From an uncultured Bacteroides sp. (GTDB lineage: Bacteria; Bacteroidota; Bacteroidia; Bacteroidales; Bacteroidaceae), in NCBI GenBank assembly GCA_947646015.1, contig CANSEY010000001.1, positions 372,001 to 436,000 on the forward strand: 64,000 nucleotides of DNA, written 5' to 3'. This document shows positions 26,619 to 37,002 of this stretch, in pieces. The notes below the pieces were generated by a model that searched no databases, was not told where the DNA came from, and worked only from the letters and a program-made list of their open reading frames with translations. A program made the translations under genes and the position numbers. How positions within the stretch are numbered: the first letter of the stretch is position 1; every line of letters starts with the position of its first letter.

Positions 26619-26630
26619 CCACCGATTCAC

Positions 26631-26706
26631 TTAGTAGGGGTGCCTTAACATGACGGGCTGAGAACATACCCTTTGACCTGATCCGGGTAATGCCGGCGTA
26701 GAGAAA
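26631..26706 (+). promoter_or_regulatory. TPP (THI element) riboswitch
   Basis: The sequence has the conserved TPP aptamer parts in order: GGGGTGCC opening P1/P2, GGGCTGAGA (CTGAGA at 26658-26663), ATACCC, then GACCTGATCCGGGTAATGCC and GGCGTAGAG. It ends about 15 nt before ATG 26721, with no terminator hairpin between. Thiamine pyrophosphate binding therefore probably blocks ribosome access. It controls the thiamine uptake and salvage genes that follow. Confidence 0.97.
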
Positions 26707-26720
26707 AACAAATTAGCAAC

Positions 26721-28940
26721 ATGAAAAAGATGATTTTTGCCGGCTGTCTGATGGCCGGAGCAAGTGTCTTCGCGCAAGCGGGCGAGACAGACAGCTTGAA
26801 AGTAGTAAATCTGCAAGAGGTGCAGATAGTATCCACACGTGCCACTTCAAAAACCCCGGTGGCATTCACCAACGTTTCGAAAGAAGAACTCAAAAAGCAG
26901 AACTTCGGGCAAGACATCCCTTTTCTGCTCAGTATGACTCCTTCGGCACTGACCACCAGTGATGCCGGAGCAGGTATCGGTTACACCACACTGCGCGTAC
27001 GGGGAACAGACGGGACACGCATCAACATCACAGCCAACGGAATCCCGATGAATGATGCCGAAAGCCATACACTCTTCTGGGTAAATATGCCCGACTTTGC
27101 TTCGTCCGTAAAGGATATACAGGTGCAGCGCGGTGCGGGTACATCGACCAACGGCGCAGGCGCTTTCGGAGCCAGTGTCAATATGCAGACGGAAGGTATT
27201 TCGATGCAACCTTATGCCGAAATAAACGCCTCGTACGGCAGCTTCAATGCTCACAAAGAGACAGTAAAATTCGGGACGGGATTGCTGAAGGATCATTGGG
27301 CATTCGATGCCCGCCTGTCCAACATCGGTACGGACGGATACATAGACCGGGCATCAGTAGACCTGTACTCTTTCTACGCACAGGGTGGATATTTTGCCGA
27401 CAATACTTCGGTGAAGTTCATCACCTTCGGCGGTAAAGAAAAGACGTATCATGCCTGGAATTATGCAACTAAGGAAGAGATGAAGAAATATGGCCGACGC
27501 TTCAACTCATGCGGCATGTACACAGATGACGACGGACACATCCGCTTTTACAAAGACCAGACGGACAACTACCTGCAAATGAACTATCAGCTCTTGCTGA
27601 ATCATACTTTCTCGGCAGCATGGAACCTGAATGCGGCACTCCATTATACAAAGGGGGACGGCTACTATCAGGAGTATAAAGAGGATCGCAGCCTGAAAGA
27701 GTATCGCCTGCATCCGTTTATGTACGACGGAAAGGAAGTGGAAAAAAGCGACCTGATCCGGCAGAAGAAGATGGACAATCACTTTGGCGGCGGCGTATTC
27801 TCGGTGAACTACCGGAATGAGAAGCTGGACGCTTCGCTGGGCGGCGCACTGAACTACTACGACGGATGGCACTTCGGACGGGTGATCTGGGTGAAGAACT
27901 ATATCGGCAAGTTGCTGCCCGACCACGAATATTACCGTAACAAAGCCAAGAAGACGGACGGGAACCTCTATCTGAAAGCCAACTACAATCTGGTGGCAGG
28001 CCTCAACGCGTATGCCGACCTGCAATACCGCTACATCAACTATAAGATACACGGTGACAATGACAAGTACGATTACAACACTGACGGACTGCAAAAGCTC
28101 GCAGTCAACGATCACTTCAACTTTTTCAACCCGAAAGCCGGACTGAACTGGGATATCGACTCCAACAACCGGGTTTACGCCTCTTTCTCCGTTGCCCAGA
28201 AAGAACCTACACGAAACAACTATACCGACGGTAACGCAGACGAATATCCGAAGGCGGAAAAACTGTACGACTACGAACTGGGGTATACCTACCGCAACAC
28301 ATGGTTGAGCGCCGGAGTCAACTTCTACTATATGGACTACAAGGACCAGTTGGTGCTGACCGGAGAATTGAACGAAATAGGCGAAGCCATGGCACGCAAC
28401 GTGCCGGACAGTTACCGGACGGGCGTAGAACTGATGCTAGGAGTTAAGCCATGCCGATGGTTCCAATGGGACATCAACGGTACGCTGAGCAAGAACCGGG
28501 TGAAAAACTTCACCGAAAAACTGTACGAAGACGAGTGGAAGAACCCGATCGAAGTGGAACATGGTAACACCCCGATCGCTTTCTCTCCGGACTTTATACT
28601 GAATAATCGTTTCTCGTTCAGCCACAAAGGATTCGAAGCCGCCCTCCAGTCACAGTACGTCAGCAAGCAGTATATGAGCAATGCCAAGCAAGCAGAGCAG
28701 ACACTCGATGCTTATTTTGTGAGCAACCTCAATCTGGCATATACATTCCAATTGCGACACGTGAAGTCAGTTACAGTGGGATTCACCATCTACAACCTCT
28801 TCAACGAAAAGTATGAAAACAACGGGTATGCCGGAAGCGGCTATACGCTGAAGGACGGCAAGCCCGAACGCTATAATTATGCCGGCTATGCCGCCCAGGC
28901 AGGTACAAATGTAATGGGTAACCTCTCGATCCGCTTCTAA
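26721..28940 (+). CDS. TonB-dependent outer membrane receptor for thiamine
   Basis: A 739-residue outer-membrane receptor. The signal peptide ends near VFAQA, and a Ton-box-like LQEVQIVSTRA comes next, with no carboxypeptidase-like domain. The plug is at about 55-160 (TTLRVRGTDGTRINITANGI, VQRGAGTSTNGAGAFGASV) and the barrel ends in the typical aromatic NLSIRF. A TPP riboswitch stands directly before it, and a PnuT transporter and thiamine pyrophosphokinase follow. This is the Bacteroides thiamine-scavenging arrangement studied in B. thetaiotaomicron. Thiamine as substrate is inferred from the riboswitch and operon. Confidence 0.92.
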   Translation: MKKMIFAGCLMAGASVFAQAGETDSLKVVNLQEVQIVSTRATSKTPVAFTNVSKEELKKQNFGQDIPFLLSMTPSALTTSDAGAGIGYTTLRVRGTDGTRINITANGIPMNDAESHTLFWVNMPDFASSVKDIQVQRGAGTSTNGAGAFGASVNMQTEGISMQPYAEINASYGSFNAHKETVKFGTGLLKDHWAFDARLSNIGTDGYIDRASVDLYSFYAQGGYFADNTSVKFITFGGKEKTYHAWNYATKEEMKKYGRRFNSCGMYTDDDGHIRFYKDQTDNYLQMNYQLLLNHTFSAAWNLNAALHYTKGDGYYQEYKEDRSLKEYRLHPFMYDGKEVEKSDLIRQKKMDNHFGGGVFSVNYRNEKLDASLGGALNYYDGWHFGRVIWVKNYIGKLLPDHEYYRNKAKKTDGNLYLKANYNLVAGLNAYADLQYRYINYKIHGDNDKYDYNTDGLQKLAVNDHFNFFNPKAGLNWDIDSNNRVYASFSVAQKEPTRNNYTDGNADEYPKAEKLYDYELGYTYRNTWLSAGVNFYYMDYKDQLVLTGELNEIGEAMARNVPDSYRTGVELMLGVKPCRWFQWDINGTLSKNRVKNFTEKLYEDEWKNPIEVEHGNTPIAFSPDFILNNRFSFSHKGFEAALQSQYVSKQYMSNAKQAEQTLDAYFVSNLNLAYTFQLRHVKSVTVGFTIYNLFNEKYENNGYAGSGYTLKDGKPERYNYAGYAAQAGTNVMGNLSIRF

Positions 28941-31441: not shown

Positions 31442-32743
31442 CTACTTGCCCAGCAGATAGCTCTTGAAATCAGCAAACTCCTTCGTCATCGGCAAACTTT
31501 TCTTTTCGCCTTTCATAAAAGCCCGGAGCTTAGCAGGTATTTCGACCTCGGTACCAATGATGCTCTCCACCGTTTGCAGGAATTTGGCCGGATGGGCCGT
31601 TTCGAGGAATACGCCTGTCTCACCCGGCTGCAAGCCTTCCTCCAATGCACGGTAACCGCATGCTCCATGAGGATCGAGCAGATAACCCGTCTGCTGCCAG
31701 CACGCTTTCACGCTTTCACGAATCTGCTCGTCGGTGTACGTCGTTCCGGATATCTCGGCAGCGATGGCTGCATGCGAACCGCCATACAGGTCGAGCACAC
31801 GGGCAAAGTTGCTCGGATCACCCACATCCATCGCATTGGCAATGGTGGCAACGGACGGACGGGGATTGTACTGTCCTGTCTGCAAATATTGATAGAAAAT
31901 ATCATTCTTATTGTTGGCGGCGATAAAACGGCGGACGGGCAAGCCCATCTTTTTGCCGAACAAGCCTGCAGTAATGTTACCAAAGTTTCCGCTCGGCACA
32001 CAGATGACGGCATTCTCTGCCCGGCCGGCCTTCTTCAATTGCGCATAGGCATAAAAGTAATAGAATGCCTGCGGCAGGAAACGTGCCACGTTGATAGAGT
32101 TAGCCGAGGTCAGCAACAACCGTTCGTTCAGTTCGTGATCCATAAAGGCTGCTTTCACCAGCGCCTGGCAGTCGTCAAACGTTCCGTCCACCTCCAGGGC
32201 TGTAATATTCCGCCCCAGCGTAGTGAACTGTTTTTCCTGTATCTCGCTGACTTTTCCCTTCGGATAGAGCACATACACATGAATACCCTCTACCCCCAAA
32301 AAGCCATTGGCTACCGCACTACCGGTATCTCCGGAAGTGGCAACGAGCACATTCACCTGTTTCCGCCCCTCTTTCCGGATGAAGTATCCCAACAAACGGG
32401 CCATAAACCGTCCACCTACATCTTTAAAAGCCAATGTAGGACCGTGGAAAAGCTCCAGGGAATAGATGTTCTCCTTCACCGGCACCAACGGGACATCAAA
32501 ATTCAACGTATCATAAACGATCTCTTTCAGCGTTTCCGCCGGAACATCTTCTCCAAAGAAAGCATCTGCCACCCGGTAAGCGATTTCCCGGAAAGAAAGA
32601 TTCTCTATCTCGTCATAAAACTCTTGGGGCAAGGGTTTGATGGTCATGGGCATGAATAGCCCCTTATCAGAAGCAAGTCCTTTGACTACCGCTTCTTCAA
32701 GCGAAGCAAGCGGAGCTTGTTTGTTAGTACTATAATATTTCAT
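31442..32743 (-). CDS. thrC: Threonine synthase
   Basis: A 433-residue PLP enzyme that converts O-phosphohomoserine to threonine. The start is set at MKYYSTNKQAPLASLEE, the usual start of ThrC; 16 upstream codons are also open. PLP-lysine motif: FHGPTLAFKDVGGRF with Lys107. Further marks: VLVATSGDTGSAVANGFLGV, and the C-terminal GVFLETAHPAKF. It is the last gene of thrA / homoserine-kinase / thrC, separated from the upstream gene by 142 bp that hold an inverted-repeat element (32777-32862). A strong terminator follows. Expression should depend on the leader upstream of thrA. Confidence 0.97.
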   Translation of the reverse strand: MKYYSTNKQAPLASLEEAVVKGLASDKGLFMPMTIKPLPQEFYDEIENLSFREIAYRVADAFFGEDVPAETLKEIVYDTLNFDVPLVPVKENIYSLELFHGPTLAFKDVGGRFMARLLGYFIRKEGRKQVNVLVATSGDTGSAVANGFLGVEGIHVYVLYPKGKVSEIQEKQFTTLGRNITALEVDGTFDDCQALVKAAFMDHELNERLLLTSANSINVARFLPQAFYYFYAYAQLKKAGRAENAVICVPSGNFGNITAGLFGKKMGLPVRRFIAANNKNDIFYQYLQTGQYNPRPSVATIANAMDVGDPSNFARVLDLYGGSHAAIAAEISGTTYTDEQIRESVKACWQQTGYLLDPHGACGYRALEEGLQPGETGVFLETAHPAKFLQTVESIIGTEVEIPAKLRAFMKGEKKSLPMTKEFADFKSYLLGK

Positions 32744-32776
32744 GGGTATTTTTATAAATGGTTTCGGAGTCGGTGC

Positions 32777-32862
32777 ACCACAGAGTCCCACAGAGTTTTA
32801 AGTTCTTATTATATGTGCTTAAGAGATAAAAAATTCTCTGTGAAAATCTGTGTAATCTGCGG
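32777..32862. repeat. CACAGAG-type inverted-repeat element between two threonine operon genes
   Basis: The left arm 32777-32797 (ACCACAGAG-TCC-CACAGAGTT) differs by two bases from the repeat right of the GxxExxY gene at 40558-40578 (read in reverse complement). The right arm (32836-32862) is a weaker inverted copy with CTCTGTG and ATCTGTG, ending TGCGGT. It looks like a small or empty copy of the element framing the GxxExxY gene. Confidence 0.6.
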
Positions 32863-32885: not shown

Positions 32886-34097
32886 TTAACGGTTCATAAA
32901 CTCTTTAATAAATTCATCCTCTTTCAGCAATCCGTAACTGCCCTCCACTGCTGCAACTTCATCGAAGGTCTGCACGCTGTCCGGCTCGATACCCGGATAC
33001 CAGATAAAAAACGGGACCGGCTCGTTGGTATGCGTACGCAGTTCACAGGGAGTAGGATGATCGGGTAATACGGCAATCGCTACCGGCTCTTCCCACTCCT
33101 TCACAGCCTCGTAGATAGGACCTACGGCACGGCTATCCAGGTTTTCAATCGTTTTCAGTTTCAGCGCCACATCACCCTCATGACCGGCTTCGTCACTGGC
33201 TTCAATGTGCAGATAGACAAAGTCGTCCGTTTTCAGGGCCTCCAGTGCGGCGGCCACTTTATTCTCGTAATTGGTATCGTACAGCCCCGTTGCCCCTTCT
33301 ACCGCAATACGGCGCAGCCCGGCATAATATCCGATACCGTTGATCAGATCGACGGCCGAGATGACAGCTCCCCTCTTCACTTGCGGGAAGGTGTCGGACA
33401 GACGTTCCATTTGCGGACGGTAACCCGGGCTCCACGGCCAGATGCTGTTGGCAGGGTCTTTCCCCTCAGCCATCCGCTTCAGGTTCAGCGGATGATCTTT
33501 CAGCAGTTCCTGAGACTTCAGGATCAGTTCATTGAGCAGGCTAGCAGTCTCTTCGGCCTCCGGTACCAAAGGTTTCACCATCAGCGGACGGAAAGGCTTC
33601 AAAGGCACATCGTGCGGAGGGGTGCAGTCGAGTTGCTTGTTTCCGCCTTTCACCACCAGCAGATGGCGGTATTGCACCCCGGTATGAAACCTCACCCGGT
33701 CGTCCCCCAGTTTCTCCTGAAGGTATTGAATCAACACATCCGCCTCTTCTGTTGTGATATGCCCTGCCGAATGATTCTTCAGGATATCTCCTTCCGTACA
33801 AATCAGATTGCAACGCATTGCCATCTCGCCCGGCTGCAAATCGACACCGATGCTGGCAGCCTCGAGTGGTCCGCGCCCTTCGTATACTTTCGGAAGATTG
33901 TATCCCAGAACCGACATATTGGCTACTTCACTTCCCGGATGGAACCCGTCGGCTACGGTTATCAACCGTCCGTTCCGTCCCATACGGGCCAGTTTATCCA
34001 TATAAGGCGTTTTTGCATATTGCAGGAGCGTCTTGTCTCCCAACGACTTTACAGCCCAGTCGGCCATTCCGTCACCCAGTATGATGATGTGTTTCAT
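32886..34097 (-). CDS. Phosphoglycerate mutase-like protein acting as homoserine kinase
   Basis: A 403-residue member of the archaeal-type cofactor-independent phosphoglycerate mutase family (alkaline phosphatase superfamily). Marks: HIIILGDGMADWAVKSLGDK at the start, HPGSEVANMSVLGY at about 53-66, VYEGRGPLEAASIGVDLQPG, and the metal-binding HIEASDEAGHEGDVALK plus AVLPDHPTPCELRTH near the end. Genome context and mutant phenotypes in B. thetaiotaomicron support homoserine kinase activity for this family, replacing ThrB. It lies between thrA and thrC, 11 bp after thrA. No classical GHMP ThrB gene is seen in the window. Plain phosphoglycerate mutase annotation would be misleading. Confidence 0.85.
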   Translation of the reverse strand: MKHIIILGDGMADWAVKSLGDKTLLQYAKTPYMDKLARMGRNGRLITVADGFHPGSEVANMSVLGYNLPKVYEGRGPLEAASIGVDLQPGEMAMRCNLICTEGDILKNHSAGHITTEEADVLIQYLQEKLGDDRVRFHTGVQYRHLLVVKGGNKQLDCTPPHDVPLKPFRPLMVKPLVPEAEETASLLNELILKSQELLKDHPLNLKRMAEGKDPANSIWPWSPGYRPQMERLSDTFPQVKRGAVISAVDLINGIGYYAGLRRIAVEGATGLYDTNYENKVAAALEALKTDDFVYLHIEASDEAGHEGDVALKLKTIENLDSRAVGPIYEAVKEWEEPVAIAVLPDHPTPCELRTHTNEPVPFFIWYPGIEPDSVQTFDEVAAVEGSYGLLKEDEFIKEFMNR

Positions 34098-34108: not shown

Positions 34109-36544
34109 TTATACGTTTGCAATGCTCATAATGTCAGCAAATACACCGGCCGCCGTCACTCCGGCACCCGCACCGTATCCCTGAATCATCATCGGATATT
34201 CTTTATAGCGTTCGGTGGTGAGCAAGATGATGTTATTGCTGCCTTCCAATCCGTAGAAAGGATGGTTGCGGTCCACTTCCTGCAAACCGACGGATGCTTT
34301 GCCGTTCTCCAGCTTGGCAACGAAACGCCAATGTTTATTCTCACTCTCGAGCACCTTGCGGCGAGCTTCGAAATCAGCATCCAGACTAGGCACTTTTTTC
34401 CAGAAGTCTTCCAGTGAACCTTCAAAGAAGTCATTCGGTACGAAAAGATTTTTCTCCACGTCTTCCTGTTCCAGCTTGTATCCGGCCTCACGCGCCAGGA
34501 TCACGAGCTTACGGATCACGTCCTTACCGCTCAAGTCAATGCGCGGATCGGGTTCCGAATAACGCTCTTCCTGCGCCATCTTGATGGTACGGCTGAAGGG
34601 AACATCGGCACTGATCTTATTGAAAATATAGTTCAGCGTACCCGAAAGCACTGCCTCGATCTTCAGAATCTTATCACCGCTATGTATCAGGTCATTGATG
34701 GTATTGATAATCGGAAGTCCAGCCCCCACGTTGGTTTCAAACAGATATTTCACACCACGCTGACGGGCTATCAGCTTCAGTTCACGGTAATTCTCGTAAG
34801 CCGATGAAGCAGCAATCTTATTGGCCGCCACCACAGAAATGTTATGTTGCAGGAAGTCCTTATATAGAGAGGCTATGTCCGGACTGGCCGTACAATCCAC
34901 AAATACCGAATTGAATATATTCATGCCGATAATCTCGTCACGTATAGTATCCAGCGAACTGTCCACTCCCTTCTCTTTCAGCTCTTCGCGATAGTTGGCC
35001 AGATCGAATCCGGCACGGCTGAACATCGCCTTCGTCGCATCGATAATACCTACCACATGGAGTTTCAGGCCATTTTCTACCATCAGCTTCTTCTGCTGCT
35101 GGCGGATCTGCTCGACAAGACTTCCTCCCACCGTGCCCACACCGCAGATAAAGAGGTTGAGCACCTGATATTCGGAGAGGAAGAACGAGTCGTGAATCAC
35201 ATTCAGCGATTTACGCAACGACTTTGAATCGACAACAAACGAGATGTTGGTCTCGGAAGCTCCCTGTGCACAGGCTATCACATTGATGCCATTTCGTCCC
35301 AGCGTACCGAACAGCTTTCCGGCAATGCCCGGCGTATGTTTCATGTTCTCACCCACGATAGCTACCGTAGCCAGGTTCTTCTCTGCCTGGATAGGCGAAA
35401 TCTCACCCATTTCGATCTCTTTGGCAAACTCTTCGTTCAGCACTTCGCAAGCCAGATCGGCATCGGCATTACGCACACCGATAGAGGTACTGTTCTCCGA
35501 TGAAGCCTGCGAAACGAGGAACACACTGATTCCATTCTTTGCCAGCGCCTTAAAGATGCGGTAGTTGACACCGATCACGCCCACCATACCTAAACCCTGT
35601 ACGGTAATCAGGCTCGTGTCGTTGATGGACGAAATCCCTTTGATGGCTTTGCTCTTCGTGTGGTCTACGTGTTGTTTGATCACCGTTCCCTGGGCATCCG
35701 GGTTGAAAGTATTCTTAATCAGGATCGGTATGTTTTTGTGACATACCGGATAGATGGTAGGCGGATACACCACTTTTGCACCGAAATTACAAAGTTCGGT
35801 AGCCTCTACATAAGTCAGCTCGCTGATAGTATAGGCCGTACTGATCACACGCGGGTCGGCTGTCATGAAGCCGTCTACATCCGTCCAAATCTCCAGACTA
35901 TCGGCATCGAGAGCTGCGGCAATAACAGCTGCGGTATAGTCGGAACCGCCCCTGCCCAGATTCGTTACGTCTCCCGAAACCTTATCCGAAGAGATGAATC
36001 CGGGTACCAGCGAAACCCGGGGGATTTCTTTGAAAGCTTCCCGCACCAACCGATTGGTCAGTTCCGTGTCCAGTGTATGTTTATTATGTTTCTTTTCTGT
36101 CTTGATAAAAGTACGTGAGTCGAACCATACAGCCCCTTGGATCAGTCTTGACGCAATCAGTGAAGACAGACGTTCACCATAACTGACAATGGTATCGGAC
36201 GTTTTCGGAGAAAGATCTTTAATCAGATAAATACCCTGAAAGATATCTTTCAGTTCGTCGAGCAATTCATTCACCTGATAGTGCAACAGGGTCTGAGTCT
36301 CTCCGGCAGGAATCACTCCCTGCACCATCTCTTCGTGGCGACGAACTATTTCCCGGTATGCCCCTTCGTAAGCTGCATCACCCATGGCGGCCATTCGGGA
36401 GGTACTGATCAACTGGTCAGTGATCCCGCCCAATGCAGACACTACTACGATTACCGGTTCACCGGCAGACTCTACGATTTTCTTTACGCTTAAAATGCTG
36501 TTCACGGAACCTACGGACGTTCCGCCGAATTTCATTACTTTCAT
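34109..36544 (-). CDS. thrA: Bifunctional aspartokinase / homoserine dehydrogenase
   Basis: An 811-residue fused enzyme for the first and third steps of the aspartate pathway. The aspartokinase part starts KFGGTSVGSVNSI (residues 5-17) and has TNLGRGGSDYTAAVIAAALD. Two ACT domains lie at about 310-460 (LGMVGVIGVNYRIFKALAKN, GIAGKLFGTLGRNGINVIAC), the site of amino-acid feedback control. Homoserine dehydrogenase begins near residue 465 (NLFICGVGTVGGSLVEQI) and has EAVLSGTLNYIFNKIS. It feeds threonine, methionine and isoleucine synthesis. It is the first gene of the operon, behind a leader of about 260 nt with a Thr/Met-rich peptide. Confidence 0.97.
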   Translation of the reverse strand: MKVMKFGGTSVGSVNSILSVKKIVESAGEPVIVVVSALGGITDQLISTSRMAAMGDAAYEGAYREIVRRHEEMVQGVIPAGETQTLLHYQVNELLDELKDIFQGIYLIKDLSPKTSDTIVSYGERLSSLIASRLIQGAVWFDSRTFIKTEKKHNKHTLDTELTNRLVREAFKEIPRVSLVPGFISSDKVSGDVTNLGRGGSDYTAAVIAAALDADSLEIWTDVDGFMTADPRVISTAYTISELTYVEATELCNFGAKVVYPPTIYPVCHKNIPILIKNTFNPDAQGTVIKQHVDHTKSKAIKGISSINDTSLITVQGLGMVGVIGVNYRIFKALAKNGISVFLVSQASSENSTSIGVRNADADLACEVLNEEFAKEIEMGEISPIQAEKNLATVAIVGENMKHTPGIAGKLFGTLGRNGINVIACAQGASETNISFVVDSKSLRKSLNVIHDSFFLSEYQVLNLFICGVGTVGGSLVEQIRQQQKKLMVENGLKLHVVGIIDATKAMFSRAGFDLANYREELKEKGVDSSLDTIRDEIIGMNIFNSVFVDCTASPDIASLYKDFLQHNISVVAANKIAASSAYENYRELKLIARQRGVKYLFETNVGAGLPIINTINDLIHSGDKILKIEAVLSGTLNYIFNKISADVPFSRTIKMAQEERYSEPDPRIDLSGKDVIRKLVILAREAGYKLEQEDVEKNLFVPNDFFEGSLEDFWKKVPSLDADFEARRKVLESENKHWRFVAKLENGKASVGLQEVDRNHPFYGLEGSNNIILLTTERYKEYPMMIQGYGAGAGVTAAGVFADIMSIANV

Positions 36545-36687
36545 GCAGATACTTATTTAATGGAATGCCTTGTACGCTCTTTCAGACATACAAAACCATC
36601 TTTGTTGATACGAATAATAAAATATAAAATTGAGTTTTGCTTACTTCCTGTAAGCGTGAATCACGTAGATACACATCATACTATATA

Positions 36688-36774
36688 TTAACCCCTAGGG
36701 GTCATCCCCATTGTCCCCTGTGTCCCAATCATGGTACACATCGATGTGACTGTATGTGGATAGCATTGCATCAT
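36688..36774 (-). CDS. Thr/Met-rich leader peptide of the threonine operon (candidate attenuator)
   Basis: A 28-codon frame, ATG 36774 to TAA 36690-36688, lies 30-40 nt inside the predicted thrA transcript. It has six threonines (residues 8, 10, 14, 18, 21, 25), six methionines including the start, and one isoleucine, all products of the pathway encoded by thrA. The last third reads TMIGTQGTMGMTPRG. Its final codons can form two mutually exclusive short stems sharing one CCCC: GGGG-ATGA-CCCC and ACCC-CTAG-GGGT (36691-36709). A further hairpin follows (36639-36655, GCTTAC/GTAAGC). Ribosome stalling at Thr or Met codons would shift the folding. No T-run directly follows the last hairpin, so the exact mechanism is open. 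Confidence 0.65.
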   Translation of the reverse strand: MMQCYPHTVTSMCTMIGTQGTMGMTPRG

Positions 36775-36811
36775 TGTTTCTGTTTCTACGTTCGATTTTG
36801 ATAAGATGTTG

Positions 36812-36819
36812 CAAAAATA
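36812..36819 (-). promoter_or_regulatory. -7 box of the threonine operon
   Basis: The minus strand reads TATTTTTG (TAnnTTTG). Transcription would start near 36805, giving a leader of about 260 nt before the thrA ATG at 36544. The leader also contains the 12-bp palindrome CACATCGATGTG (36737-36748). Confidence 0.55.
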
Positions 36820-37002
36820 AGAATAATTTCATTCAATCTATCACTTTTTGCGATTATTTTGCGATAAAAGCACAGAAAGCCCCAGAAAGAGGGGTAAAAA
36901 TGTAACATAGAACAATTACATTTTTATAGTGCCCATTGCTTTTTCTCCGGATAAAGCGGATCACTTTCTTGACACTTTGCTGCCATTTACAAGATATATC
37001 AT

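Follow-up and report, generated by a model that had tools for sequence, protein, structure and literature searches.

In the gammaproteobacteria the threonine (thr) operon is preceded by thrL, a short Thr-rich leader peptide upstream of thrA, the gene for bifunctional aspartate kinase/homoserine dehydrogenase I (AK-HSD I), and of the rest of the operon. A similarly placed leader occurs in a 64,000-nucleotide stretch of DNA, hereafter the window, from an uncultured Bacteroides sp. (assembly GCA_947646015.1, contig CANSEY010000001.1, positions 372,001 to 436,000), where a 28-codon open reading frame (ORF; 36688..36774 of the window, minus strand; MMQCYPHTVTSMCTMIGTQGTMGMTPRG) lies upstream of thrA and is highly likely to form part of a threonine-responsive, ribosome-sensing leader of the thr operon. 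The Bacteroides element is not a replica of thrL, however: in the Bacteroidaceae its second enriched residue is Met rather than Ile, its folds are different and intrinsic terminators are mostly missing.

A described leader RNA also exists in closer kin. RF01692, titled Bacteroidete tryptophan peptide leader RNA in Rfam, is the known trp leader RNA of the Bacteroidetes (Weinberg 2010, PMC2864571, in the parts consulted) and likewise provides a leader peptide with control codons in the same genus. At the end of the trp leader, however, stands an intrinsic terminator of great strength (6/6 examined, median -28 kcal/mol), and RF01692 has no match at the thrA locus. Similarly, no other Rfam family, including the threonine operon leader, T-box and riboswitches, matched the thr leader at its gathering score, the locus giving just two matches to long non-coding RNA (lncRNA) families with E values of 0.56 and 8.1, below their gathering scores. 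The his, ilvD and pheA leaders of the genus share the logic of the thr leader, each carrying codons for the amino acid that the pathway makes in a short frame ahead of the gene, but strong terminators are present in 49/54 of those and are rare in thr leaders. For Flavobacterium psychrophilum, of the same phylum, the parts consulted of PMC9723704 report strong signs of attenuation by leader peptides ahead of amino acid operons; the main text of that paper does not mention thrA or threonine. In B. thetaiotaomicron short ORFs within long 5′ untranslated regions (UTRs) are reminiscent of leader peptides in the parts consulted of PMC7366714, in whose main text thrA and threonine do not occur. The consulted parts of PMC7903761 and PMC6429828 hold nothing on thrA, and we recognised no description of a Bacteroides thr leader in searches of the open literature, subscription papers lying outside their coverage.

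Bacteroides are major members of the human gut flora, and the control of their amino acid synthesis is little explored; among the amino acid leaders met in this analysis, only the trp leader matched Rfam. At about 200 nt, the thr element is well defined and open to testing, and the prediction it carries is clear: a response to Thr, perhaps also to Met. Seen beside the his, ilv and phe leaders, it suggests that Bacteroides generally use ribosome-sensing leaders for such control, with thr as the odd one. If transcription truly ends here without an intrinsic terminator, there is a mechanism to be found.

A threonine-rich leader frame conserved upstream of thrA

The preliminary description of this DNA had counted six Thr, six Met and one Ile codon in the 28-codon frame, and the ORF list agrees. 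Compared with the window's own proteins, the binomial tail is 0.0028 for 6 Thr in 27 codons and 0.0005 for 5 non-start Met. Because short ORFs are numerous, the codon bias of this one frame is suggestive only. The thrA upstream regions came from three sources: public contigs with titles (80 loci), genomes of the same genus (thrA in 47/60) and genomes of the order (thrA in 53/158, 50 of them new and 43 used, with G138, G065, G174, G063, G160, G077 and G125 left out). Dropping stretches identical over 250 bases reduced a total of 172 regions to 161 distinct ones. A leader was called by a rule that combines a short ORF, a terminal ACCC..GGG hairpin and Thr near the end of the frame, and which favours Thr near the end. 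By this rule 92/161 distinct regions carry a leader, as compared to 5/161 on the opposite strand and 0, 0, 1, 1 and 2 of 161 in five dinucleotide-shuffled sets; it is this conservation in relatives that places the leader beyond chance. Among the order-level loci, 14/43 carry it. The typical Bacteroides peptide reads M(N/M)KYYPHTVTSMCTMTLRG, the Phocaeicola-like one MTERCLYIILTGMGLMSLITSATGMTPRG, and those of distant Bacteroidales MQNKPPYFSYTTTTTPWGV or MMFWQLHITTTTTTTPAGV. Between the leader stop and thrA lie 68-254 nt of RNA (median 138; 92 leaders).

Over the 1928 codons of the 92 leaders, Thr is 4.3-fold and Met 4.5-fold above background. Outside the last six residues Thr makes up 20.0% of the 77 Bacteroidaceae-type leaders and 18.4% of the 15 distant ones, as compared to 5.4% in window proteins, while the figures for Met are 12.6% and 3.1% against a background of 2.5%. 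Thr is thus the shared signal, and the enrichment of Met is an addition confined to the Bacteroidaceae. The expectation that relatives would keep both kinds of codon holds for Thr throughout and for Met within the Bacteroidaceae, and fails for Met in distant leaders. Similarly, of the proposal that the leader senses both amino acids, the Thr part stands as the shared signal, and Met sensing as a second signal beside Thr is possible, going by codon content, in the Bacteroidaceae only. In one thrA upstream region (L012) the leader is enlarged to MMLNRYYRHFVTSTYVGTMTSVGTMTHAGIMTCVGTTTPRG, with repeated Val/Gly-Thr-Met-Thr units, and repeat growth seems to have multiplied its Thr and Met codons.

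Evidence for translation of the leader frame

Selection on the frame was measured over a fixed stretch upstream of hairpin H, the ACCCC-UA-GGGGU hairpin in the last leader codons (36691..36702, minus strand, as are all leader features below). The stretch was cut by nucleotide anchors only, with no amino acid or open-frame condition, and pairs at least 75% identical were compared, which drew on 41 of 59 distinct segments, pairs of relatives not being independent. In the leader frame the synonymous share of single-base codon differences was 0.496 versus 0.275 expected, and in the other two frames it was 0.180 versus 0.243 and 0.246 versus 0.265 (41 sequences). The spacing from a Tyr-block motif to hairpin H, again with no open frame required, keeps one phase in 46/49 distinct sequences over a range of 40 to 109 bases. 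Spacings in phase take 9 values and those off phase 3, and the three off-phase rows resemble anchor slips by eye. The leader stop codon alternates among TAA, TAG and TGA. The synonymous excess and the kept phase argue that the leader frame is under coding selection and is apparently translated. A first synonymous test (0.636 versus 0.245, 16 leaders) was set aside because its leaders had been chosen by amino acid pattern, which favours synonymous change, and a first spacing test with a loose anchor (12 in one phase, 8 in another) was replaced by the one anchored on the GGGG of hairpin H.

RNA folds shared with relatives

The folds predicted to be common to relatives are H, a long-range pairing P1 and two hairpins, B and C. 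They were compared in a structural set of 63 leaders (L078 and L106 left out) and in an alignment set of 34 representatives chosen at 75% identity. Hairpin H has an analogous ACCCC..GGGG hairpin in distant Bacteroidales leaders, and its three C-G pairs are invariant in 34/34 representatives, so that it gives no covariation. P1 joins leader codons 3-5 (ATGCTAT, 36760..36766) to a strand directly after the leader stop (ATAGTAT, 36678..36684), and the two strands covary across relatives, in which the early codons UACUAUC (Tyr-Tyr) pair with GAUAGUA just past the stop. Cognate P1 duplexes average -9.56 kcal/mol versus -7.72 kcal/mol when permuted (34 representatives), permutations as good as the cognates number 0/5000 with 62, 49 or 34 sequences and 21/5000 with 18, and P1 beats the mean of its own shuffles in 56/63 leaders. 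In a MAFFT alignment of the 34 representatives, with several rows one base off, the whole structure exceeds its slid versions.

Downstream of P1 lies hairpin B (GUGUAUC-UACGU-GAUUCAC, 36656..36674), whose loop CUACGUG is its most conserved part and nearly invariant. It is followed by hairpin C (GCUUAC-AGGAA-GUAAGC, 36639..36655). The third hairpin that had been noticed after the frame is thus present as C, and B is a fourth that had not been named separately. At least four U within about four bases follow hairpin B in 24/63 leaders (group II), and in other leaders hairpin C comes after B; relatives with a U-run after B do not have C. The 30 of 57 distinct B elements that have a C-like hairpin were aligned. 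In these 30 sequences B and C together have 42 cells changed on both sides versus 14.4 in shuffles, and their covariation was reached in 0/500 shuffles for four measures and 1/500 for a fifth. C is cleaner than B, with 97.8% of cells paired and 4 pairs changed on both sides. Allowing at most one mismatch, element B occurs in exactly one copy in each of 40 genus genomes, the reversed pattern has no match, and a thrA-like start follows it at a distance of 88-211 nt in 30/30 loci read; at three mismatches there are two further matches in the own genome. What sequence comparison shows is a conserved Thr-rich frame, the predicted folds P1, H, B and C, and a link of all these to thrA.

Two short stems sharing one CCCC had been proposed as competing stems of an attenuator. 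Both are present, since GGGG-AUGA-CCCC (36698..36709) competes with ACCCC-UA-GGGGU, that is hairpin H, for CCCC 36701-36698. This pair of stems is found in only 10/92 leaders, namely the window (L001), its nearest relative (L003), seven Phocaeicola-like leaders (L058, L060, L063-L066 and L108) and L078. The stems may tune the device in the lineages that carry them and are not its common core, relatives sharing H, P1, B and C instead. On the question whether stems covary, P1 does, as do B and C together, and the invariant H gives no covariation.

Two further elements flank these folds. In the 5′ UTR, strand A (ACGTAGAAACA, 36781..36791) has a potential partner in UGUAUCUACGU of hairpin B, with a computed duplex energy of -11.7 kcal/mol for the window's sequence; this pairing takes in the 5′ half and loop of B and is strong in most Bacteroides. 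Hairpin D (GUUUUGUAUG..CGUACAAGGC, 36567..36596) is predicted by folding close upstream of thrA, with no U-run after it, and a D-like fold recurs in 22 group I relatives with a mean probability of about 0.4, similar position and changing sequence. When the window's leader is folded on its own, the result is unremarkable (z -1.53). RNAalifold on a single alignment of 62 leaders gave short stems only, in our opinion because variable frame lengths misalign the rest, and anchored and per-element tests were used instead.

A proposed ribosome-controlled switch

A putative promoter lies at 36812..36836 (minus strand), with TATTTTTG of the TAnnTTTG type at 36819-36812 and TTGA near 36836-36833, a combination that we take to have the shape of a Bacteroides promoter. 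Many relatives have a TTG(A)...TAnnTTTG block in the corresponding position. Transcription is predicted to start near 36805, and given the position of the putative promoter the whole leader frame is expected within the transcript.

In the model that we propose, RNA polymerase would start there and a ribosome would follow, translating the leader. When charged tRNA-Thr is scarce, the ribosome would halt at mid-frame Thr codons, stay off the RNA past the stop codon and block the loading of a next ribosome. Strand A, joined by the P1 5′ strand when the ribosome stalls at a later Thr, could then pair from the 5′ side of the leader with the P1 3′ strand and the 5′ half of B, which would disrupt hairpin B and let transcription continue into thrA. 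When Thr is plentiful, the ribosome would reach the stop codon and cover the P1 3′ strand, hairpin B would form, together with C or, in some species, with the U-run after B, and most transcripts would end before thrA, perhaps with the help of Rho. The stalling, the direction of the switch and the end of transcription as its output are what we infer from the arrangement of these parts. Folding simulations of the 63 leaders are consistent with the second state: P1 has a mean of 0.96 on the scale used and B 0.34 when no ribosome is present, and with a ribosome at the stop codon these values become 0.01 and 0.48. A stall at the first Thr codon hardly differs from a ribosome at the stop, and the model consequently needs strand A or a stall at a later Thr.

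A number of observations weigh against this reading. The rule used here detects no leader in 69/161 upstream regions, and these include every one of the seven loci titled Prevotella sp. (L096, L099, L100, L104, L105, L109 and L110), and only 8/15 distant leaders have at least two Thr outside the last six residues. P1 is weak in the window itself (-5.6 kcal/mol) and the P1-like pairing in distant families is marginal, 363/10000 permutations being as good. In the 34-sequence alignment three of five measures stand out from the shuffles; for the other two, 46 and 77 of 500 shuffles scored as high. Hairpin B has two inner pairs that are open in 20 and in 10 of 30 sequences, respectively, its strands fit the strands of other species equally well by duplex energy (z between -0.2 and 0.8), and C strands are not better matched to their own partner in the smallest set (z -1.1). 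For the pairing of A with B, covariation is absent from the larger sets (z -0.4 with both 62 and 49 sequences, -1.1 with 34) and present only in single cases such as L026, a z of -2.1 being reached only in an 18-sequence set; the pairing is also weak in Phocaeicola-type leaders. The A:B′ pairing was for these reasons dropped as a general switch. In L004, L010, L011, L022, L023 and L024 strand A fell outside this test, because an in-frame ATG further upstream had been chosen as the start. The simulated switch is also weak, since a ribosome at the first Thr codon leaves B at 0.42 (versus 0.48 at the stop) and P1 at 0.13, with A:B′ at 0.36 versus 0.29 (63 leaders). Finally, intrinsic terminators, which our scan defines as a hairpin of at most -8 kcal/mol with five U in six bases after it, are found in only 4/77 Bacteroidaceae and 3/15 distant thr leaders.

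We accordingly hold the parts of this reading at different strengths. Taken as a whole, a Thr-sensing ribosome leader with Met as a probable second signal in the Bacteroidaceae and with the switch model attached appears to us probable on balance. The exact ribosome-controlled switch between P1 and hairpin B, with transcription stopping either at B or by way of Rho, is put forward tentatively. Equally tentative is a set of unusual properties that this device may have: a switch helix that points backward, the conserved partner of the post-stop strand being the early leader codons; a mid-frame ribosome sitting inside the loop of the helix that it controls; Thr and Met read together; transcription ended without an intrinsic terminator, by Rho, by a protein able to recognise the invariant CUACGUG loop, or by an unusual terminator; and lineages of the order that keep the Thr frame and H while the rest of the fold is rebuilt.

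How transcription might end before thrA

The last step of the switch is where the alternatives mainly differ. By the terminator scan the window's own thr leader has no intrinsic terminator, in agreement with the lack of a T-run reported in the preliminary description. The same scan finds terminators in 55/60 his, ilv, phe and trp leaders of the genus (23/23 his, 15/15 parsed phe, 11/16 ilvD and 6/6 trp). An earlier scan set against shuffles gave 4/39 for every second Bacteroidaceae leader versus 8%, and 4/15 for distant leaders versus 16%. Because most thr leaders are without an intrinsic terminator, unlike the other leaders of the genus, a classical attenuator is unproven for thr. The earlier idea of an attenuation device therefore survives as a conserved, apparently translated Thr leader with RNA folds, while its classical form finds no support.

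The main rival for this last step is Rho-dependent control, in which the same Thr leader would operate and P1, H, B and C would only decide the access of Rho to the untranslated stretch between the leader and thrA. The missing terminators and the length of RNA between leader stop and thrA (68-254 nt, median 138) are what such control would call for, and the leader frame has more C than G in 74/92 leaders. The post-leader stretch itself, however, is not C-rich and has no rut-like composition (mean C 0.176, G 0.177; C > G in 43/92), and we regard this explanation as somewhat unlikely, although it deserves to be kept in mind.

A classical attenuator, relying on an intrinsic terminator like that of E. 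coli thrL or those of the genus's own his, ilv, phe and trp leaders, is less probable. Leaders of this kind are indeed present in the same genus, the Thr codons adjoin hairpins, and the U-runs close to B in group II resemble the required signal, but a strong hairpin with a U-run occurs in only 4/77 leaders and the counts relative to shuffles given above show no enrichment. Moreover, the post-stop strand has no conserved downstream partner in group I (22 leaders) or in group II (20 of 24 leaders, four being too far from thrA and left out). In the his leaders, by comparison, the post-stop strand (UCGGUGGGC) fits the 5′ arm of the terminator in a textbook pairing. Since the post-stop strand of the thr leader fits early leader codons instead, the thr device does not simply repeat the design of the other leaders.

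It is less likely still that the output is the translation or stability of thrA mRNA, with leader translation rearranging the 5′ UTR or with ribosomes reinitiating at thrA. Conserved hairpins without a terminator, and hairpin D close to thrA, would suit such an output. Against it, the distance to thrA varies over the whole range given above, and no conserved fold is found at the thrA start except a weak UUCAU:AUGAA pairing (0.29 in one state). Furthermore, Bacteroidetes leader genes are reportedly commonest 11-14 bp from the structural gene, a spacing read as reinitiation in the parts consulted of PMC4833913. That B is instead a DNA operator for a regulator, with the ORF incidental, is very improbable, for although B is near-palindromic (GTGTWTCTACGTGAWTCAC) with an invariant centre and compensatory change alone cannot separate a DNA palindrome from an RNA hairpin, the single B copy in each of 40 genomes at one mismatch or fewer rules out a regulon at this stringency, P1 lacks palindromic symmetry, and the leader frame itself appears to be under coding selection.

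The thr operon and other leaders of the genus

The Thr-sensing leader would serve a complete thr operon, all of it on the minus strand: thrA (34109..36544; NCBIfam NF006959, 1056 bits versus a cut-off of 726), a proposed homoserine kinase gene as the second gene of the operon (32886..34097; TIGR02535, 586 bits versus 446) and thrC for threonine synthase (31442..32791; TIGR00260, 302 bits versus 167, with the span 31445-32743 scanned and its true start uncertain).

Leaders upstream of other amino acid genes were met in the same genus. A His-rich leader of the MKYTATHHHHHFPNE type precedes hisG in 23/23 parsed loci of 24 (L205-L228, the count being made without the short L221), including that of the own genome (L212, G000:C5:153621-154085). 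Upstream of ilvD, an Ile/Val/Leu-rich leader of the MNLHTSINLAVLHIIRVVVVASRA type is present in 16/16 loci (L235-L250); ilvD was not found in the own genome, whose assembly is incomplete. Similarly, the prephenate dehydratase gene (pheA) has a Phe/Tyr-rich leader of the MKSFTYAYYFFFYFYFSQKVEREFVCIK type in 17/17 loci (L251-L267), 15 of which were parsed for the terminator count, and the own-genome copy is L254 (G000:C9:28919-29452). Rfam had no match in the scanned his (L212, L210), ilvD (L248, L235) and pheA (L254) leaders. The Bacteroid-trp RNA (RF01692), with leader MRTMLVNTYWWWRPLQLRQS, was found in 20/24 genus genomes including the own one (L230, G000:C14:51506-51650).

Elsewhere in the window, a divergent gene for a type I asparaginase (TIGR00519; 37035-38087, plus strand) adjoins the thr operon, and a thiamine pyrophosphate (TPP) riboswitch is located at 26626-26721 on the plus strand (57.7 bits).
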